DNA of 64,000 nt from Candidozyma auris (lineage: Eukaryota; Ascomycota; Pichiomycetes; Serinales; Metschnikowiaceae). Shown piece by piece: positions 45,541 through 53,569 of the stretch. The DNA lies in contig NC_072814.1 in assembly GCF_003013715.1 (NCBI RefSeq), forward strand, positions 1,984,001 to 2,048,000, read 5' to 3'. Both the position numbers and the translations under genes were made by a program. The notes under the pieces were generated by a model, which was not told where the DNA came from, ran no database searches, and was given only the letters and a program-made list of their open reading frames with translations. Every line of letters starts with the position of its first letter. The first letter of the stretch is position 1.

Positions 45541-48291
45541 ATGATGCTGGGCCTGGAACAATACCTACAGCATCGATCAGACCCATTTGCCCCTGGAAAT
45601 GAGCATGGTGATCCAGAATCTGGCTTAAGTTTCAGCAGCGGGGCAATTTCGGAAGAGATAACCGATATCGATGAGAAGGAGGACCCCGTGGAATATCAGA
45701 GCTCAGAGCAAGCCAGGCTGAAAGAGTCCTTGAATCTTTTGAAGATTCTTTCAGGTAAACAAAGTGCCTTCAAGGCAGCTCAGACAAAGAAAAAGGTTAG
45801 AAACCTGGGCCTTGAAGAAAAAAAGTACCTGGAATCAGAATTAACAGATTCATCGCTTGATGCACCTATGTATGAGCCATTATCTGAAAAAGCAGATCTG
45901 TTGAAAGAGCTTGAACAACGAATGTACAGTTCCAGGAAGTCAGCATCCGCCATGGATCTTCTCAATATACGACGAGCTGAAAAACATGAAGAGAACCTTC
46001 CCTCAGAGGAGCATGTGGAGGTCATTCCAGATCATGAAAGTTCTGATTGCGAGCCTGAAGTCATCGAGGAGATACAAACGAATAAAGTTGCAGTTCGAGA
46101 TATATTTTCGAGCTTTGGCCATCGCCGTAAGATGAACAAGGACGGAGAATGGAAACTCGAGGTGAAGCTTCGCATAAGTCCAAACAAACTTGGGGAAATC
46201 AAGAAATACGATGACCCCTTCAGAACACGAGGAATAAATCCCGGTGGAAGCAGTATGATAAATACGCTAATGAGGAAGCGTCACACTAAGATTGTCACGC
46301 TACGCCTACCATCAAATTTTCTCCAAGAGATTCAAAAGACTCTTAACCCGCTTTATACTAAGAGTTCAGGGATACCGAACGGTAAGAGTGCTAGATGCGT
46401 ATTCGATGAAATGATGCAAAGCGCCAGTGTAACAGCTTATCCCAAGCTTACACCTTTGCAGAAAGCAAAAGAACTATATCCACCGCCAATAAGAAGGCAA
46501 GAGATGCACGTCATTGATAGAGATCAGCTTTTACATATATCAACTTCATCGAATCTCAAACCTCGGGAGAAGAGGACTTCTATTCATGAAAATCTAGGGT
46601 CTCTCTCCTCGTTATGCATCCACAAATATCCTCCACAGAATGGCCACGAGTCAATCAGCAGCATTCTTAACACCATTGACGACATAGATGATTTTATTGC
46701 CGACAAGGCACCACTTGCATTCGAAAGCCAACCGCATACGCGGATTTACAAGCAATTCATACAACATCACGCTTTAGATAACAATCAGCTCTGGACGGAC
46801 AAGTTTTCTCCCCCCAGCGCAGACGATTTATTACTCGACCCTCAGACTAGGTACACTTTTGGGCGGTGGATTAACAACGCCTTCTCCATACTCAAATCGC
46901 AATCAACAAAGACACCAAGGAATGTGAAAATCCGTGAGCAACAGATGAGGCAACGAAAGAAACAATCTCAATCCATGCAAGGCTTCATTGTAAATGACAT
47001 AGAAGACGATTCGGAAGAAACAGAGGAGGATGTTTTTGTTCCTGTTCTCATACTACAAGGTCCACTGGGTTGTGGTAAATCAGCTGCAGTGTATGCTGCC
47101 ATGAAAGCACTCGATGGATATGTTTATGAGATTAATGCTGGGCAAAATCGATCCAGAAGAGATCTCTACGGTCCTCTCAAAGAGTTTTGCACCACAAACA
47201 TTATTAGTCAGAGAGGCCAAGAGAAATCATTTCAAGAAGGATTGGTGTTCTTTGAGGATTGCGATGTGCTATTTGAGCAAGATAAAACATTCTGGACTGC
47301 TGTCCAGGATGTAATCAATTTCTCCAAGCGACCCATTGTCATCTCGGCGCAGGACACTTCAAGTATACCACGTTCCATTTGGGAGCAAGCCGAAGAACAA
47401 AATTCCGTAATATATATCGAGAGTCAGGATACGGAAGCTTTCAAACAGTACATTTGGCTATGTTGCTTCTCCGAAGGCTACGATTTATCTGACAATATCT
47501 TAGACTGGGTCTCAAAGCAAAGCAACAGAGGCTCTTACGACGTAAGAAAGGCACTCATGATTTCCCAATGGCTCTGCAAAGAAGACGTGGATCTAAACTC
47601 TGATGAAACTCTTCTGATAGATATGAGACGTGACCAAACCAACGATTCGAACTACGACAGTTCGCTAGAAGCTTTCGCTCGAGAACGTGATATTCTCTCT
47701 TCCTCAGATGTGATCGTTGCCAATATGAGATCGGTGAAGCTCCAGGAACAAAGTCCCAATGAATTACTAGACTCATATATCGTTGACGATGGTCAATCGC
47801 TCCATCCTTCTCCTGAACCCGATGAGTGCAATGTTGGAAAATATATTCACAATAGGCTTAATGTCAAAAACGACAAAGAGCTATCACTATTACTGTTTAA
47901 TAAGATTAGAAGCGTTGTTTTGGAATTCGTTGCCTCACGAACTAAAAAGAGACCGAAGTTTCTTCAGGACTACTACGGAGTTCGAACATCAACGAGAAGC
48001 CGCTCTTCTGAGTCCTCATTTGATCTGCCGATGCTCGACGCACAAGACTTACCTGAGACATCAGTGTGCTACAGCATGAGTAAGACCTCTTTTATTCTTG
48101 AACTAGCAGCCTACTGTCGTGATTGGGCACGCTTTCAAAAAGCTCTATATGATGTTGAGCGAGAGAGAAGACAGAAAGGCGAAGATATCAGTATAGAGGC
48201 CATGGGATGGAGACATTTTCAGAAAGGAACAGCAGAAATCTTATCCGTCTTTCCAAATGTCAAAGCTTCGCCTAAATCAATCTCGTCCTAG
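45541..48291 (+). CDS. ELG1: Elg1, alternative clamp unloader (ATAD5 homologue)
   Basis: 916 residues from the paired ATGs at 45541/45544; the frame extends in-frame to ATG 45160, giving 1043, but the extra part is low-complexity leader. AAA+ ATPase large subunit: Walker A near 507-514 (GP-x-GCGKSA, with x encoded by CTG, so serine here), Walker B VFFEDCDVLF, and an RFC-like helical C-terminal part (SFILELAAYCRDWARF). WTDKFSPPSADDLL just before the AAA domain is the RFC-box style lead. Elg1 replaces Rfc1 with Rfc2-5 to unload PCNA after replication. The stop overlaps the stop of SPT3 on the other strand by 20 bp. Confidence 0.9.
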   Translation: MMLGLEQYLQHRSDPFAPGNEHGDPESGLSFSSGAISEEITDIDEKEDPVEYQSSEQARLKESLNLLKILSGKQSAFKAAQTKKKVRNLGLEEKKYLESELTDSSLDAPMYEPLSEKADLLKELEQRMYSSRKSASAMDLLNIRRAEKHEENLPSEEHVEVIPDHESSDCEPEVIEEIQTNKVAVRDIFSSFGHRRKMNKDGEWKLEVKLRISPNKLGEIKKYDDPFRTRGINPGGSSMINTLMRKRHTKIVTLRLPSNFLQEIQKTLNPLYTKSSGIPNGKSARCVFDEMMQSASVTAYPKLTPLQKAKELYPPPIRRQEMHVIDRDQLLHISTSSNLKPREKRTSIHENLGSLSSLCIHKYPPQNGHESISSILNTIDDIDDFIADKAPLAFESQPHTRIYKQFIQHHALDNNQLWTDKFSPPSADDLLLDPQTRYTFGRWINNAFSILKSQSTKTPRNVKIREQQMRQRKKQSQSMQGFIVNDIEDDSEETEEDVFVPVLILQGPLGCGKSAAVYAAMKALDGYVYEINAGQNRSRRDLYGPLKEFCTTNIISQRGQEKSFQEGLVFFEDCDVLFEQDKTFWTAVQDVINFSKRPIVISAQDTSSIPRSIWEQAEEQNSVIYIESQDTEAFKQYIWLCCFSEGYDLSDNILDWVSKQSNRGSYDVRKALMISQWLCKEDVDLNSDETLLIDMRRDQTNDSNYDSSLEAFARERDILSSSDVIVANMRSVKLQEQSPNELLDSYIVDDGQSLHPSPEPDECNVGKYIHNRLNVKNDKELSLLLFNKIRSVVLEFVASRTKKRPKFLQDYYGVRTSTRSRSSESSFDLPMLDAQDLPETSVCYSMSKTSFILELAAYCRDWARFQKALYDVERERRQKGEDISIEAMGWRHFQKGTAEILSVFPNVKASPKSISS

Positions 48292-49255
48292 ACTTAAGCA
48301 TACCTCCTCCGAATGAACGCACTGCCTTGTGCTTAAAATCTGTAGATTGAAGTCGGCGCCAGGCCTCCTCAATGTGGTATGGTTGTATTGGCTTTGCAAG
48401 CTCGTCTGGCTTTTCAAAAAGATACTTTCGCTTCCGCTTATTGATCTCTTTATTTATAGCCCCAGCCTTCAGTAGGTTCTGCTGGATGAGTTTCTCCTCT
48501 GCTGTTTTGATAGACATAGCCACCTCCGTCAAGGAGCAGACTATTTCGAAAGTCAAGAAGCCAAGAATATCAATGACATCGTCATTGGGCCTGGACTCAC
48601 ATATTTGCGTAATTTGGGCCCACTCTCTGAACTTTTTAGCCTTTCGAAAGGTAAATGAAGCCTGACGGCACTCGGACCAATGCACATATTCCTCCTTAGT
48701 CATGTTTTTCGTTCTATCGTCCGCCATTTTCAACCTCTTCAATGATGCCATTGTAGCGGCTTTCTCCTCGTCGTCCACTTCCTCGGCTTCTTCTGCGGTT
48801 TCGAGGTGTTGTTCACTGAACATGAATTGCACCTCCCAAGGCAACCTGATCTTTGACTTTTTGTATCGTGTCATCATTTTTGATTGGTCATTGGCCCCAG
48901 GAGCAGCTACAGCTGAAGCAGGGGCGGCAGCATCTCCTTCAAGAAGACCCTCGGCACCACCACCTTCCTGATCTTTAGTGTTCTTTCTAACATCTTTCCA
49001 GGAGAGGTACGTGATGAGACGATTGACCTTGGCTTTATCATGTCGTATGAGGAAAATCACATCTTCTGAAGATATGGATCGGGTCCCTCTGCTGGCAGCT
49101 GTCTTCGTCGCCTGAAGTAGAATCTCAATAACTTGTCCTCTTACAATGTCCTCAATTAGCGAGGTTGTCTCAACTGGCAGATCATTGACCTCACCAGAGA
49201 CAAACATCATTTGTTGAACCTCAACTCTGTACCTGTACTTGTCTGAGTTCGACAT
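48272..49255 (-). CDS. SPT3: SAGA subunit Spt3
   Basis: 327 residues; S. cerevisiae Spt3 has 337. Two histone folds: N-terminal about 8-100 (RYRVEVQQMMFVSGEVND, VETTSLIEDIVRGQVIEIL, VIFLIRHDKAKVNRL) and C-terminal about 165-290 (WSECRQASFTFRKAKKFREW, DIIDILGFLTFEIV-like). The intramolecular pair resembles TAF13-TAF11 and delivers TBP for SAGA. The linker at about 100-125 is Gly/Ala-rich. Residue 26 is a CTG (49178-49180) in NDxPVETT; serine fits, leucine would be odd. The last 20 bp of coding sequence overlap ELG1 tail to tail. Confidence 0.96.
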   Translation of the reverse strand: MSNSDKYRYRVEVQQMMFVSGEVNDLPVETTSLIEDIVRGQVIEILLQATKTAASRGTRSISSEDVIFLIRHDKAKVNRLITYLSWKDVRKNTKDQEGGGAEGLLEGDAAAPASAVAAPGANDQSKMMTRYKKSKIRLPWEVQFMFSEQHLETAEEAEEVDDEEKAATMASLKRLKMADDRTKNMTKEEYVHWSECRQASFTFRKAKKFREWAQITQICESRPNDDVIDILGFLTFEIVCSLTEVAMSIKTAEEKLIQQNLLKAGAINKEINKRKRKYLFEKPDELAKPIQPYHIEEAWRRLQSTDFKHKAVRSFGGGMLKSRTRLI

Positions 49256-49800
49256 GCTGTAAGATCACCAAAGCTAGTTTACTGCGATTTAGTGAATTTG
49301 ATATCGCGCAGTACTACAAGTTCATATGTTCATGATGTTGAAACTACAATCAATACAAACACAAAAGTTTTTTTATAGCCTGTTATTGATTTGAAAAGTC
49401 AAACTCTATCTTTGCAAAGGATTCCCAAAATACGGCTATGTGAGACACCAAATTATAAAGGGTTGAGTTTGTGGCGTTTAAACATAGCTTCCCAGACTTA
49501 CGTCAATTCCAAAACGGAAACGATTGCCCGAATAAATGAGGAGATTTTTGAAATACTAAAACAATTATTTATCACTGTAGTAGACTCATAACGAGAAGCA
49601 TCAGATTATGTAAGTGGTTGGTGAGCGTCAGTGGCTCACTGAAGATGTACTATGGGCCTCAGTGAAGATCACAATTGAAACAACGAGCACATGAACATAT
49701 CCACGACGTGTTTTAAATGTTCGATATTAAAAAGTAGTAAAACGGCTTCTTGTAAGAAGCCCCAGCTTCCCAAGACCGGGTAACGTTGCGCGAAGAAGAG
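49256..49800. other. Intergenic: SPT3 upstream region
   Basis: 545 bp before the snoRNA host promoter. Short frames at 49391-49591 (plus) and 49669-49857 (minus) show no family resemblance. Nothing else seen. Confidence 0.4.
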
Positions 49801-49807
49801 TATATAA
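49801..49807 (+). promoter_or_regulatory. TATA box of snoRNA host transcript
   Basis: TATATAA, 57 bp upstream of the host intron donor at 49864, consistent with a short first exon. Confidence 0.55.
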
Positions 49808-49863
49808 GTACGAAAAAATTCATCAAAATACTCATCTTCTTCTATATTATCAAACAACAGAAA

Positions 49864-50011
49864 GTATGTTTATATTTTGTTGCAGTTTTGAAATGATGAC
49901 TCTGAGTGCATTTGGCTCGAGACTTTCTGTCGGTGTGGAAAAACCTAAGCTACCTTATTATCATTGGCTGATATTACTGCTTTTACACGTATGCTCATTA
50001 CTAACCTAAAG
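49864..50011 (+). other. Intron of a non-coding host transcript
   Basis: 148 bp with canonical signals: donor GTATGT (49864-49869), branch TACTAAC (49999-50005), acceptor CTAAAG ending 50011. Exon 1, between the TATA box and donor, contains no ATG. Exon 2 begins at 50012 and its first ATG is followed by a stop two codons later. So the host looks non-coding; its second exon runs antisense into the 3' end of TLG1. The intron carries the snoRNA below. Confidence 0.72.
49882..49980 (+). ncRNA. Intron-encoded box C/D snoRNA, snR13-like
   Basis: C box ATGATGA at 49893-49899 and D box CTGA at 49968-49971. They are framed by a perfect five-base terminal stem, GCAGT (49882-49886) pairing with ACTGC (49976-49980). 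About 99 nt, a normal size. The element GCATTTGGCT (49908-49917) is complementary to AGCCAAAUGC of 25S rRNA, the segment that contains the 2'-O-methylated A2280 and A2281 guided by snR13 in S. cerevisiae. GCTACCTTA (49949-49957) is complementary to the adjacent UAAGGUAGC. The rRNA sequence and numbering are from memory. The D' box is imperfect (CTCGA or TCGA near 49916-49920). Homology to snR13 is inferred from the target only. Confidence 0.72.
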
Positions 50012-50047
50012 ACGAAACATTTGAATCACCATTTGCTCATTCTACTC

Positions 50048-50740
50048 TCATGCCACAATAAGAAGGACAAGTAGGATCACGAGGACGACTACCAAAACGC
50101 CTATGCAACAGTTACTAGCCGTATCTCTGTTTTTCTCGATCACGTAGTTTATGCGCTTCAAACCTCTTTGGAGCTTACTTCCAACTGTATCCATGTCTTG
50201 ATCTAACTCATCAAGCATGAAACCTTGCTCTTCGAGCTCACCACCCATCATCTGTGCTTGTTGATTAAGGTTTCGCATGGTTTCGTGTATCGAGTCGAGT
50301 TGAAGATCCTGATTCTGAATCGCCTCTTGCTCTTGAAACTGATTGAATTCCCTGTCTATTCTGCGACTATCGCTTGATGGTCCCTCTCTATCCTCGTCCT
50401 GACTGATTCGATTTGACATGGTGGTGATTTCTCTCTGCCTTTGGGGGTACTTCACTCTTTCATCCCACTCATTCTTGAGTCCAGCGATCTTCAGCTGCAA
50501 CTGGCTCAAGATCTGTTTTCTGCTGACTATCTCCGATGAGCTTAGATTGAATTGTGACGGGTTTGATTCAGAGATTTGTACTGCTTGCTTTAGATCTTCT
50601 AGAGTCTCCGTCAACTCCTCATAATTGTTGTGAAAGTCTAGCTTGGCTTCATCAGTGATGTGAAAAGACCGTTTAACAAAAGTGTCCAACGAATGAATCT
50701 GAGACCAGCAGTCCTCCTCTACCTCTTTAAATGGATCCAT
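50048..50740 (-). CDS. TLG1: t-SNARE Tlg1
   Basis: 230 residues from ATG 50740; S. cerevisiae Tlg1 has 224. N-terminal Habc-like helical region starting MDPFKEVEEDC (about 1-100), Qc-SNARE motif (about 140-205; LQLDSIHETMRNLNQQAQMM then GGELEEQGFMLDELDQDMD with the central Gln near 180), and a C-terminal membrane anchor (about 209-230) preceded by CC, a likely palmitoylation site as shown for yeast Tlg1. It mediates endosome-to-late-Golgi fusion with Tlg2 and Vti1. The 3' end faces the snoRNA host transcript. Confidence 0.92.
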   Translation of the reverse strand: MDPFKEVEEDCWSQIHSLDTFVKRSFHITDEAKLDFHNNYEELTETLEDLKQAVQISESNPSQFNLSSSEIVSRKQILSQLQLKIAGLKNEWDERVKYPQRQREITTMSNRISQDEDREGPSSDSRRIDREFNQFQEQEAIQNQDLQLDSIHETMRNLNQQAQMMGGELEEQGFMLDELDQDMDTVGSKLQRGLKRINYVIEKNRDTASNCCIGVLVVVLVILLVLLIVA

Positions 50741-50798
50741 TCGATGTTCATAAGTATGCAATGCGCCTCAACTTGGCTCTAACACACCTTCAAGTAAG

Positions 50799-50808
50799 GT
50801 CACGTGAC
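50799..50808. promoter_or_regulatory. Palindromic GTCACGTGAC between TLG1 and SDC1
   Basis: Ten-base perfect palindrome matching the Cbf1 consensus on both strands, in the divergent spacer. Confidence 0.5.
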
Positions 50809-51020
50809 GCTGTTGAGAAGAAACGTACAATGTCTTACTCAAATTTCATCGCAATTGAAGCTTCATAGACTTGAAATGAGACCATGGATCTAAGCTTGAA
50901 GACCCTGCTCTTTAAACGCTTTGCCAGATCATAGTTAGTGCATGAAGCTAATACATGGATGCGTTGCATCTCACCAACATACGCACAACGCGAAAATCTC
51001 CCACTAGTACACTTTCTACA

Positions 51021-51371
51021 ATGTCTGCTTCTGACCCAATTTCAGAGAATGGCGTTCTGAACAATTCCGTGGCACCGGAACTTTCGAGTATCGACTTGAA
51101 ACGCGAAGAATCTCCACCTGTGAAGAAAATCAAGACCGAAGAGGCGTCTATACCAAAGCACACAGAACCTCCAGTGCACGAGATTGTCGGTGGTTCTTCA
51201 ATTAGACAATATCTCAATAAGCACTTGACCCAGCACCTTCTAGAAGGCTTGAAGCAAGTTGGCAAGGATAAGCCAGAGGACCCTTTGTTGGCTCTCGGGA
51301 AATTTTTGATTCAGCGTTCTGAGGATCTTAAAGGAGAGTGTAATAAAGATGCAGAAGGTAATGCTTCATAG
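51021..51371 (+). CDS. SDC1: COMPASS subunit Sdc1 (Dpy-30)
   Basis: 116 residues from ATG 51021 (an in-frame ATG at 50955 would give 138 and adds an uncharacteristic basic leader). C-terminal Dpy-30 motif at about 58-100: SIRQYLNKHLTQHLLEGL then DPLLALGKFLI, the X-type helical dimer that binds Bre2 (Ash2). The N-terminal half is disordered with a KREESPPVKKIKTEE nuclear-type stretch. S. cerevisiae Sdc1 has 175 residues. Works with Swd3, also in this window, in Set1 H3K4 methylation. Confidence 0.9.
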   Translation: MSASDPISENGVLNNSVAPELSSIDLKREESPPVKKIKTEEASIPKHTEPPVHEIVGGSSIRQYLNKHLTQHLLEGLKQVGKDKPEDPLLALGKFLIQRSEDLKGECNKDAEGNAS

Positions 51372-52033
51372 TTCTGCAGTACTGAATTGCTCTTCAGTAA
51401 ATAAATCCGCCTTGGCTGTTATCTGAAGATATCACCTGCTGAATTTTCCACTGCCATACGGCTAGACATACGCCCTAGATTATGTCGCTCCAGGACGTGC
51501 TCTGATCACGCATTTGGGAAACAGTTTTTGGCAATTTGTTTTCAGTAAAGTGTTCTATATTCTCGCCATTAGAGATAGATATGCTGAGAGCTTTGAAGCT
51601 AAACCGCCAGTCTGCAAATCTTTGCGAGAATGTGAGGTCTTACAACCCGCTTCATCGCATTTGAGGAGTTATTACAAAGTCAAAAGACCAGAAAAGTCTT
51701 CATTGCTCCAGAGAAAGAGCAAAGACTTGTGAACATAAGTTGATAGAGACATCAGAAAGTGTGTGTAAGCTGAAATAGACTCATGGTAAATATCACCTTA
51801 TTGTTATCAAAAATAAACGCACACACAAGATAGGTATACGGAGTAGCAAGTAACCAAATACGAGAATCTCTGTCCGGAAGTGAAAGATGGGAAGAAAACT
51901 GTCTAAGTTAATGACAAGCTGACGTCACTTTGTTCATAGCAGGTGAACCCCGTACAGCCTGCACAGTTTAGTAAAGCAGCACCTTTAACGCAATAAACGC
52001 AACAGACGCCACTGACAACTTTCCTTCTCCAGC
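51372..52033. other. Intergenic: SDC1/UGO1 spacer
   Basis: 662 bp on one strand orientation. A 72-codon frame (51514-51732) has no ortholog-like pattern. A-rich toward UGO1. Nothing else seen. Confidence 0.45.
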
Positions 52034-53569
52034 ATGCCTGGCGATTCTTCTTTACGTCCATATTATGATCATGATACCTTCAACGCTGGGTATCTGGTCA
52101 TTTATAAACCAGGCATTGGCGTTGTGGACACCGCGACTGATAAACCTATCATCGCATCATTAGGTCAATCTCTAGGGAACTCGCTTGCCGGAAAGGGTGT
52201 TGGTATCAATGGTATCAAGAATGCCGGTAACAGAACCTCTTTTAGCTCGGTTGGACCTGGTGGAGACAAAAACTATGTATATGACTTGGAATTCCTGGAA
52301 TATTTTGACTTCAGCAATCTCCTGGAACTTCTCAAAAACTTGTTTTGGAATTTTTTTAAAAACTACTGCAAGGTCGTGGTATCTCAGCCTTTAGAAATTG
52401 TCAGATTGGTTTTGCAAGTTGGCTACTTTGACTTTTCAACCTCGAAACCCCGGCAAACGTCAAAGAACCATCGCAGACTTGCTGCAAGCATAAATAGTTC
52501 GACGGGTTCCATGGTTTCCGAAGGCGATTTGCTTTCGAGCTCAGAGGGCGAAGAAGAGATTGATTTTTTCCAACTGACTCACGGCGAACCCCCAATGCAG
52601 AAATCCGTGGTGTCGAAGAAACAGAAACCTGTATCAAAGACCTCAAAGATTCAACCTGTTTCCGCACATACGGTCGATATATTGACCGCAATTGCTTCAA
52701 AAGATGGACCATTTGCTTTATTTCGTGGAGTGAACGCGTCATTCATCCATCATACCTTGTTACACACAATAGAAGCCTGGATCACTGGCTTCCTCTCTCC
52801 ATTCTTGGGGATCCCCGATCCCTTCTTCCTTGATCTCACGCACCTGACTGAGCCTGCCAAATCACTATGGCTATCTGTGCTGGCTTGTGTATTGGCAGGT
52901 GTTGTATTGATGCCGTTGGACCTAATCAAGGTAAAACTCATGCTAACCCAATTCAACAAGGCCATACCTTCAGATTCAAATGAACAAAGCCCCTCAGCAA
53001 CCTCAGGCTCCGATGAAGAAGAACAACTGGCAGAAAAGGTGAAAACCCGTTCAGTGAGAGAATCCATAAAGTATTATCCTATCCGATACGTCTTGCATCC
53101 CCCATTCACAATAACTTTGTTGACGGTTTTGCATCAGTTCTCAACGACCGTATTCCGCAAAGCTTCGCCGTATATTTTGTTTATCCGCTACAATGTGGAT
53201 GCATATTCGGCTCCTAATTGGTACACGATGGCCAATTTGTTTCTACTGATTGCTGAATTATTCATCAAGCTACCTATGGAAAATTTGTTACGAAAAGAAC
53301 AGGTGAGATTCCTACTTACACCGAAGAGCAGTGAAAGTGACCCACACAGAGTTGTCACAATCGACAACCCTGATGAAGATCTTATAGTGACTTTCAATAA
53401 TTGGGATGCTGCACATGCTCACAGGACGAATGGTGAACTTTCTCTTTGGCAAAGGATCAGATTACTTGGACTTTTCAATGGCTGGAGAGTAGGCGTCCTC
53501 AATGTAATTGGGTTTTGGGGTTACAACATATTTCGGTCTAGCGAAGTGCTCACCGAGGAAAAGCTTTAG
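52034..53569 (+). CDS. UGO1: Mitochondrial fusion protein Ugo1
   Basis: 511 residues; S. cerevisiae Ugo1 has 502. A degenerate mitochondrial carrier in the outer membrane that links Fzo1 and Mgm1 in fusion. Start MPGDSSLRPYYDHDTFNAGY matches the family start. Carrier-like segments are visible: VVVSQPLEIVRLVLQVGYFD (about 113-132), GPFALFRGVNASF (about 227-239) and VVLMPLDLIKVKLMLTQ (about 293-309), each a decayed PX(D/E)xx(K/R) repeat. Acidic linkers at about 165-185 and 318-335. VPS17 follows 143 bp downstream on the same strand. Confidence 0.93.
   Translation: MPGDSSLRPYYDHDTFNAGYLVIYKPGIGVVDTATDKPIIASLGQSLGNSLAGKGVGINGIKNAGNRTSFSSVGPGGDKNYVYDLEFLEYFDFSNLLELLKNLFWNFFKNYCKVVVSQPLEIVRLVLQVGYFDFSTSKPRQTSKNHRRLAASINSSTGSMVSEGDLLSSSEGEEEIDFFQLTHGEPPMQKSVVSKKQKPVSKTSKIQPVSAHTVDILTAIASKDGPFALFRGVNASFIHHTLLHTIEAWITGFLSPFLGIPDPFFLDLTHLTEPAKSLWLSVLACVLAGVVLMPLDLIKVKLMLTQFNKAIPSDSNEQSPSATSGSDEEEQLAEKVKTRSVRESIKYYPIRYVLHPPFTITLLTVLHQFSTTVFRKASPYILFIRYNVDAYSAPNWYTMANLFLLIAELFIKLPMENLLRKEQVRFLLTPKSSESDPHRVVTIDNPDEDLIVTFNNWDAAHAHRTNGELSLWQRIRLLGLFNGWRVGVLNVIGFWGYNIFRSSEVLTEEKL

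Follow-up and report, generated by a model that had tools for sequence, protein, structure and literature searches.

The question raised by positions 49864 to 50011 of a 64,000-nucleotide (nt) stretch of Candidozyma auris contig NC_072814.1 (the window; guanine plus cytosine content 44.7%) is which small nucleolar RNA (snoRNA), if any, lies in the intron predicted there, how it would be made and what it would modify. A sequence-only reading of the window had proposed a box C/D snoRNA of about 99 nt, at 49882-49980, inside a 148-nt intron, and our motif scan places the TATA box, donor, boxes, stem, branch site and AG exactly where that reading had put them (Table 1). The class of RNA was borne out by a covariance search, in which the Rfam family RF01223 (snR13) matched 49872-49973 with 52.5 bits against a gathering score of 47. 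This is the sole Rfam match above gathering score in the window, and RF01223 exceeds its cut-off once in the whole genome assembly (12,249,773 bases in 7 contigs), at this locus. We identify the RNA predicted within the intron as the box C/D snoRNA snR13; this identity, together with its ribosomal RNA (rRNA) target and its extra base-pairing element, goes beyond the sequence-only reading. A second RF01223 match (19.3 bits, E 4.9) was rejected as noise, since 10 of 14 control genomes searched at the same threshold likewise give matches below the cut-off. A search for snR60 (RF00309) gave no match, and the controls were equally silent, so that this result is uninformative.

The splice signals around snR13 are not there by chance. 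Taken in their full order, the signals are met a single time in the window and never in 12 Mb of simulated sequence (second-order Markov model, both strands counted), with spacings that had been picked after the locus was seen. Across the genome, 56 sites combine the donor with a C box, and a suitably placed TACTAAC followed by AG is found at 10 of them, this locus included, whereas 209 permuted words put through the same test gave a mean of 0.34 and a maximum of 3. Five of the nine other sites contain C/D snoRNAs known to Rfam (snR75, snR67, snR54, snoR38 and snR87), and snR73 lies inside a further candidate intron with the branch word CACTAAC. The sites L035, L041, L056 and L017 show the same succession of GTATGT, C box, TACTAAC and AG and have no Rfam match above cut-off; L041, with an 8-bp stem around its boxes, may contain a C/D snoRNA that is diverged or not yet listed, and L017, which is without CTGA, may be an ordinary intron or a chance occurrence. 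The terminal stem of snR13, to which the sequence-only reading had also pointed, is indeed a perfect five base pairs, but it sits 6 nt beyond the C box and 4 nt beyond the D box, and it is weak evidence alone because such a stem would be met by chance about one time in ten (an estimate from some 100 placements over 1024).

The guide and the extra element are complementary to adjoining stretches of eukaryotic large subunit (LSU) rRNA. In Saccharomyces cerevisiae, snR13 directs methylation of both A2280 and A2281 of 25S rRNA, and mutations show that this double methylation needs an unusual D' box (UCGA or CUCGA) together with extra base-pairing (PMC5389607). Both features are kept here, the D' box as CUCGA. 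For the pairing test, the rRNA was eukaryotic LSU rRNA inside contaminated bacterial records. The rRNA complements of guide and extra element (9 nt each) start 7 nt apart and have 2 bases in common in 10 of 10 contigs; since the contigs were fetched by a target pattern that imposes both, this co-occurrence is built in, and the information gained is where the pattern falls, namely in eukaryotic LSU rRNA in all three of the 10 contigs that were tested by Rfam. The same pattern had no match in viral contigs. A trial for a second target, with the bases that precede the D box, gave duplexes of just -7.7 to -10.7 kcal/mol over the 10 contigs. As a separate matter, the three contigs tested (L058, L063 and L065) are filed as bacterial, and the eukaryotic LSU rRNA in them marks those assemblies as contaminated. 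Of the seven contigs without an Rfam test, most resemble these three; the flanks of one of the seven, L060, look like a chance match, not rRNA.

We consider it highly probable that snR13 is spliced out of the intron of a non-coding host and then guides methylation at the equivalents of A2280 and A2281. The transcription, splicing, processing and methylation that we infer for this species would begin with a short RNA polymerase II transcript of two non-coding exons and a single intron carrying snR13. Splicing would remove the predicted intron. The lariat would be debranched and its ends trimmed by exonucleases as far as the assembled small nucleolar ribonucleoprotein, which would leave an RNA of about 99 nt with no cap, whose D'-linked guide, aided by the extra base-pairing element, would direct 2'-O-methylation of two adjacent 25S rRNA adenines matching the yeast pair. 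When snR13 of S. cerevisiae is given an artificial 5' extension that carries a cap, its 3' trimming is impaired and part of the RNA reaches the cytoplasm, with methylation slowed, not abolished (PMC5934358). Splicing off a capped 5' end makes sense because such an extension hinders the yeast RNA.

Several observations weigh against this reading. The acceptor is AAG, a less usual one than CAG or TAG, although the intron that contains snR87 (L055) likewise has AAG as its first AG. For cluster I, PMC5033589 reports TAG or CAG alone as acceptors. A looser succession of CTGA, TACTAAC and YAG is not enriched (45 occurrences vs 57 in a reversed control). The 16-nt target derived from the guide has no exact match in the genome assembly, which, we would guess, lacks ribosomal DNA. 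For the loci of relatives, the snoRNA pattern found no match in the bacterial/archaeal or viral collections. Finally, the predicted fold of snR13 is no more stable than that of shuffled sequences (z 0.25), which is not unusual among C/D RNAs.

The foremost alternative is that snR13 is transcribed independently, as in S. cerevisiae, as a short unspliced RNA whose surrounding splice signals are mere remnants. In its favour, the SNR13 gene of S. cerevisiae is driven from a promoter of its own and contains no Rnt1 cleavage site (PMC5934358), and the snoRNA described here is preceded, at a distance of about 80 nt, by a TATA box. However, the placement of that TATA box points to transcription beginning before the donor, so that an unspliced RNA would keep a capped 5' extension of the hindering kind; moreover, donor and branch site are of perfect consensus, and similar introns recur elsewhere in the genome. 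We regard independent transcription as improbable.

Still less probable, in our judgement, is an intron that forms part of the 5' untranslated region (UTR) of a protein gene further downstream, an arrangement for which one Candida case, snR79, is on record (PMC5033589). The next plus-strand coding gene found is the SDC1-like gene at 50955, and it lies past a convergent minus-strand gene (50048-50740). Further, nothing in the host points to a protein within the part inspected, namely 28 nt of exon 1 (from 49836) joined to the initial 189 nt of exon 2, in agreement with the earlier claim that the exons carry no credible protein: exon 1 is free of ATG, and the longest ATG-started stretch after splicing has 16 codons, runs past the end of the examined sequence and lies antisense to the convergent gene, whose 3' end exon 2 reaches after 36 nt. 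A pseudogene or a chance gathering of motifs, to which an Rfam score just 5.5 bits above cut-off might lend some colour, can hardly be credited given intact functional elements, the lack of the full architecture from 12 Mb of simulated sequence and the absence of any further copy above cut-off in the genome.

Table 1. Features of the snR13 locus and neighbouring genes, in window coordinates.
Feature	Position	Strand	Basis and remarks
SPT3-like gene (TFIID-18kDa)	48272-49255	-	Pfam
Reb1-like word CGGGTAA	49777-49783	+	motif scan; 3' end 17 nt before TATA box
TATA box TATATA, assigned to host gene	49801-49806	+	motif scan; putative promoter role
Exon 1	49836-49863	+	predicted; 3' end fixed by donor, 5' limit arbitrary
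Predicted intron, 148 nt	49864-50011	+	motif scan; donor GTATGT at 49864-49869
snR13 box C/D snoRNA, 99 nt from stem end to stem end	49882-49980	+	exact ends predicted
Outer stem GCAGT/ACTGC, 5 bp, perfect	49882-49886/49976-49980		motif scan
C box ATGATGA	49893-49899	+	motif scan; agrees with RUGAUGA
Guide GCATTTGGC, 9 nt	49908-49916	+	complements LSU rRNA GCCAAATGC, region of yeast A2280/A2281
Overlapping four- and five-nucleotide D' boxes TCGA/CTCGA	49916-49920	+	motif scan
Degenerate C' box GTGTGGA, probable	49933-49939	+	motif scan; putative assignment
Extra base-pairing element GCTACCTTA	49949-49957	+	complements rRNA TAAGGTAGC beside guide target
D box CTGA	49968-49971	+	Rfam alignment and motif scan
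Branch site TACTAAC	49999-50005	+	motif scan
Acceptor AAG	50009-50011	+	first AG downstream of TACTAAC
Exon 2, drawn to convergent TLG1-like gene	50012-50047	+	predicted; open reading frame ends at 50048
TLG1-like gene (syntaxin-6-type SNARE)	50048-50740	-	Pfam
SDC1-like gene (Dpy-30)	50955-51371	+	Pfam
Possible UGO1, tentative	52034-53569	+	Pfam; partial mitochondrial carrier match

TLG1-like, SDC1-like and possibly UGO1-like genes follow one another beside snR13 (50048-53569). In S. cerevisiae we take the gene row to be TLG1, SDC1, UGO1, RPL27B, SNR13, TRS31, and because the neighbours here match those surroundings, the locus is probably syntenic with the SNR13 region. SNR13 is transcribed toward TRS31 (PMC4378619). 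Among the best 120 of 1,722 matches to the SPT3-like protein, a Candidozyma duobushaemuli protein is 97% identical, Metschnikowia reaches 84%, and the other matches between them reach up to 91%, which makes a Candidozyma-like yeast likely. The word CGGGTAA resembles a Reb1-type site and would be a putative one. Tbf1-type words are absent from 49500-50120 by motif scan, and no snoRNA promoter motif was found in the available part of a C. albicans Tbf1 location study. The folding of 49836-49900 is unremarkable (z -0.52), and a search run with a bacterial setting found no transfer RNA in the window.

In other fungi, snR13 homologues are tabulated as intronic, namely Nc CD1 of Neurospora crassa (PMC2780460) and TRnc_338 of Trichophyton rubrum (PMC3890542), the latter beside another RF01223 entry tabulated in a 5' UTR (PMC3890542). 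As with the RNA predicted here, their place is given as an intron, and their targets (26S Am2242 and 25S Am2267, each in its own numbering) would be equivalent to yeast A2280/A2281. Since snR13 is listed as intronic in both these fungi and is independent in S. cerevisiae, the intronic form is probably ancestral and the intron lost in Saccharomyces, which supports the sequence-only reading in its view of an ancestral arrangement. We are evenly divided on the fuller scenario, in which, near the same genes as SNR13, this lineage would keep an ancestral, splicing-made uncapped 5' end for which Saccharomyces swapped in an independent start; if it is true, one orthologous gene pair would show how a snoRNA lost its intron.

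The principle is not new, and the locus is an ordinary further example of an intronic arrangement known in Candida-type yeasts; its value lies in the naming of an RNA and its target. It gives snoRNA gene and target their names in a Candidozyma-like genome, and offers a clear orthologous case, with splice signals intact on one side of the comparison, for the idea, already in print, that snoRNA genes of Saccharomyces came about through intron loss from non-coding hosts. The main text of PMC5033589 does not name snR13, and the part of PMC3596301 that treats snoRNA clusters I to III does so without mention of it. We found no description of snR13 as intronic in Candida species in the literature searched, and no C. 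auris snoRNA study among the 12 titles listed, of 3,544 matches, in a separate search. Intronic snoRNAs in non-coding transcripts of C. albicans and the C. parapsilosis group were reportedly described by Mitrovich et al. in 2010.

Compared with known systems, the locus resembles those of C. albicans and the C. parapsilosis group, where a C/D snoRNA likewise lies in the intron of a non-coding transcript with GTATGT and TACTAAC signals (PMC5033589). The non-coding hosts that the sequence-only reading mentioned for Candida are in print: in C. albicans, 37 of 68 snoRNAs are intronic and most snoRNAs are in transcripts without coding potential (PMC5033589). With S. cerevisiae snR13, compared by way of the RF01223 consensus, the RNA has in common the C and D boxes, the 19-nt block UGAGUGCAUUUGGCUCGAG holding guide and D' box, the CGGUGUGGAAAAAC block and the AAGCUACCUU extra pairing, whereas its D'-C' loop is about 20 nt shorter than in the consensus. 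It differs from S. cerevisiae SNR13 also in its setting, a predicted intron here and an own promoter, without Rnt1 site, there.
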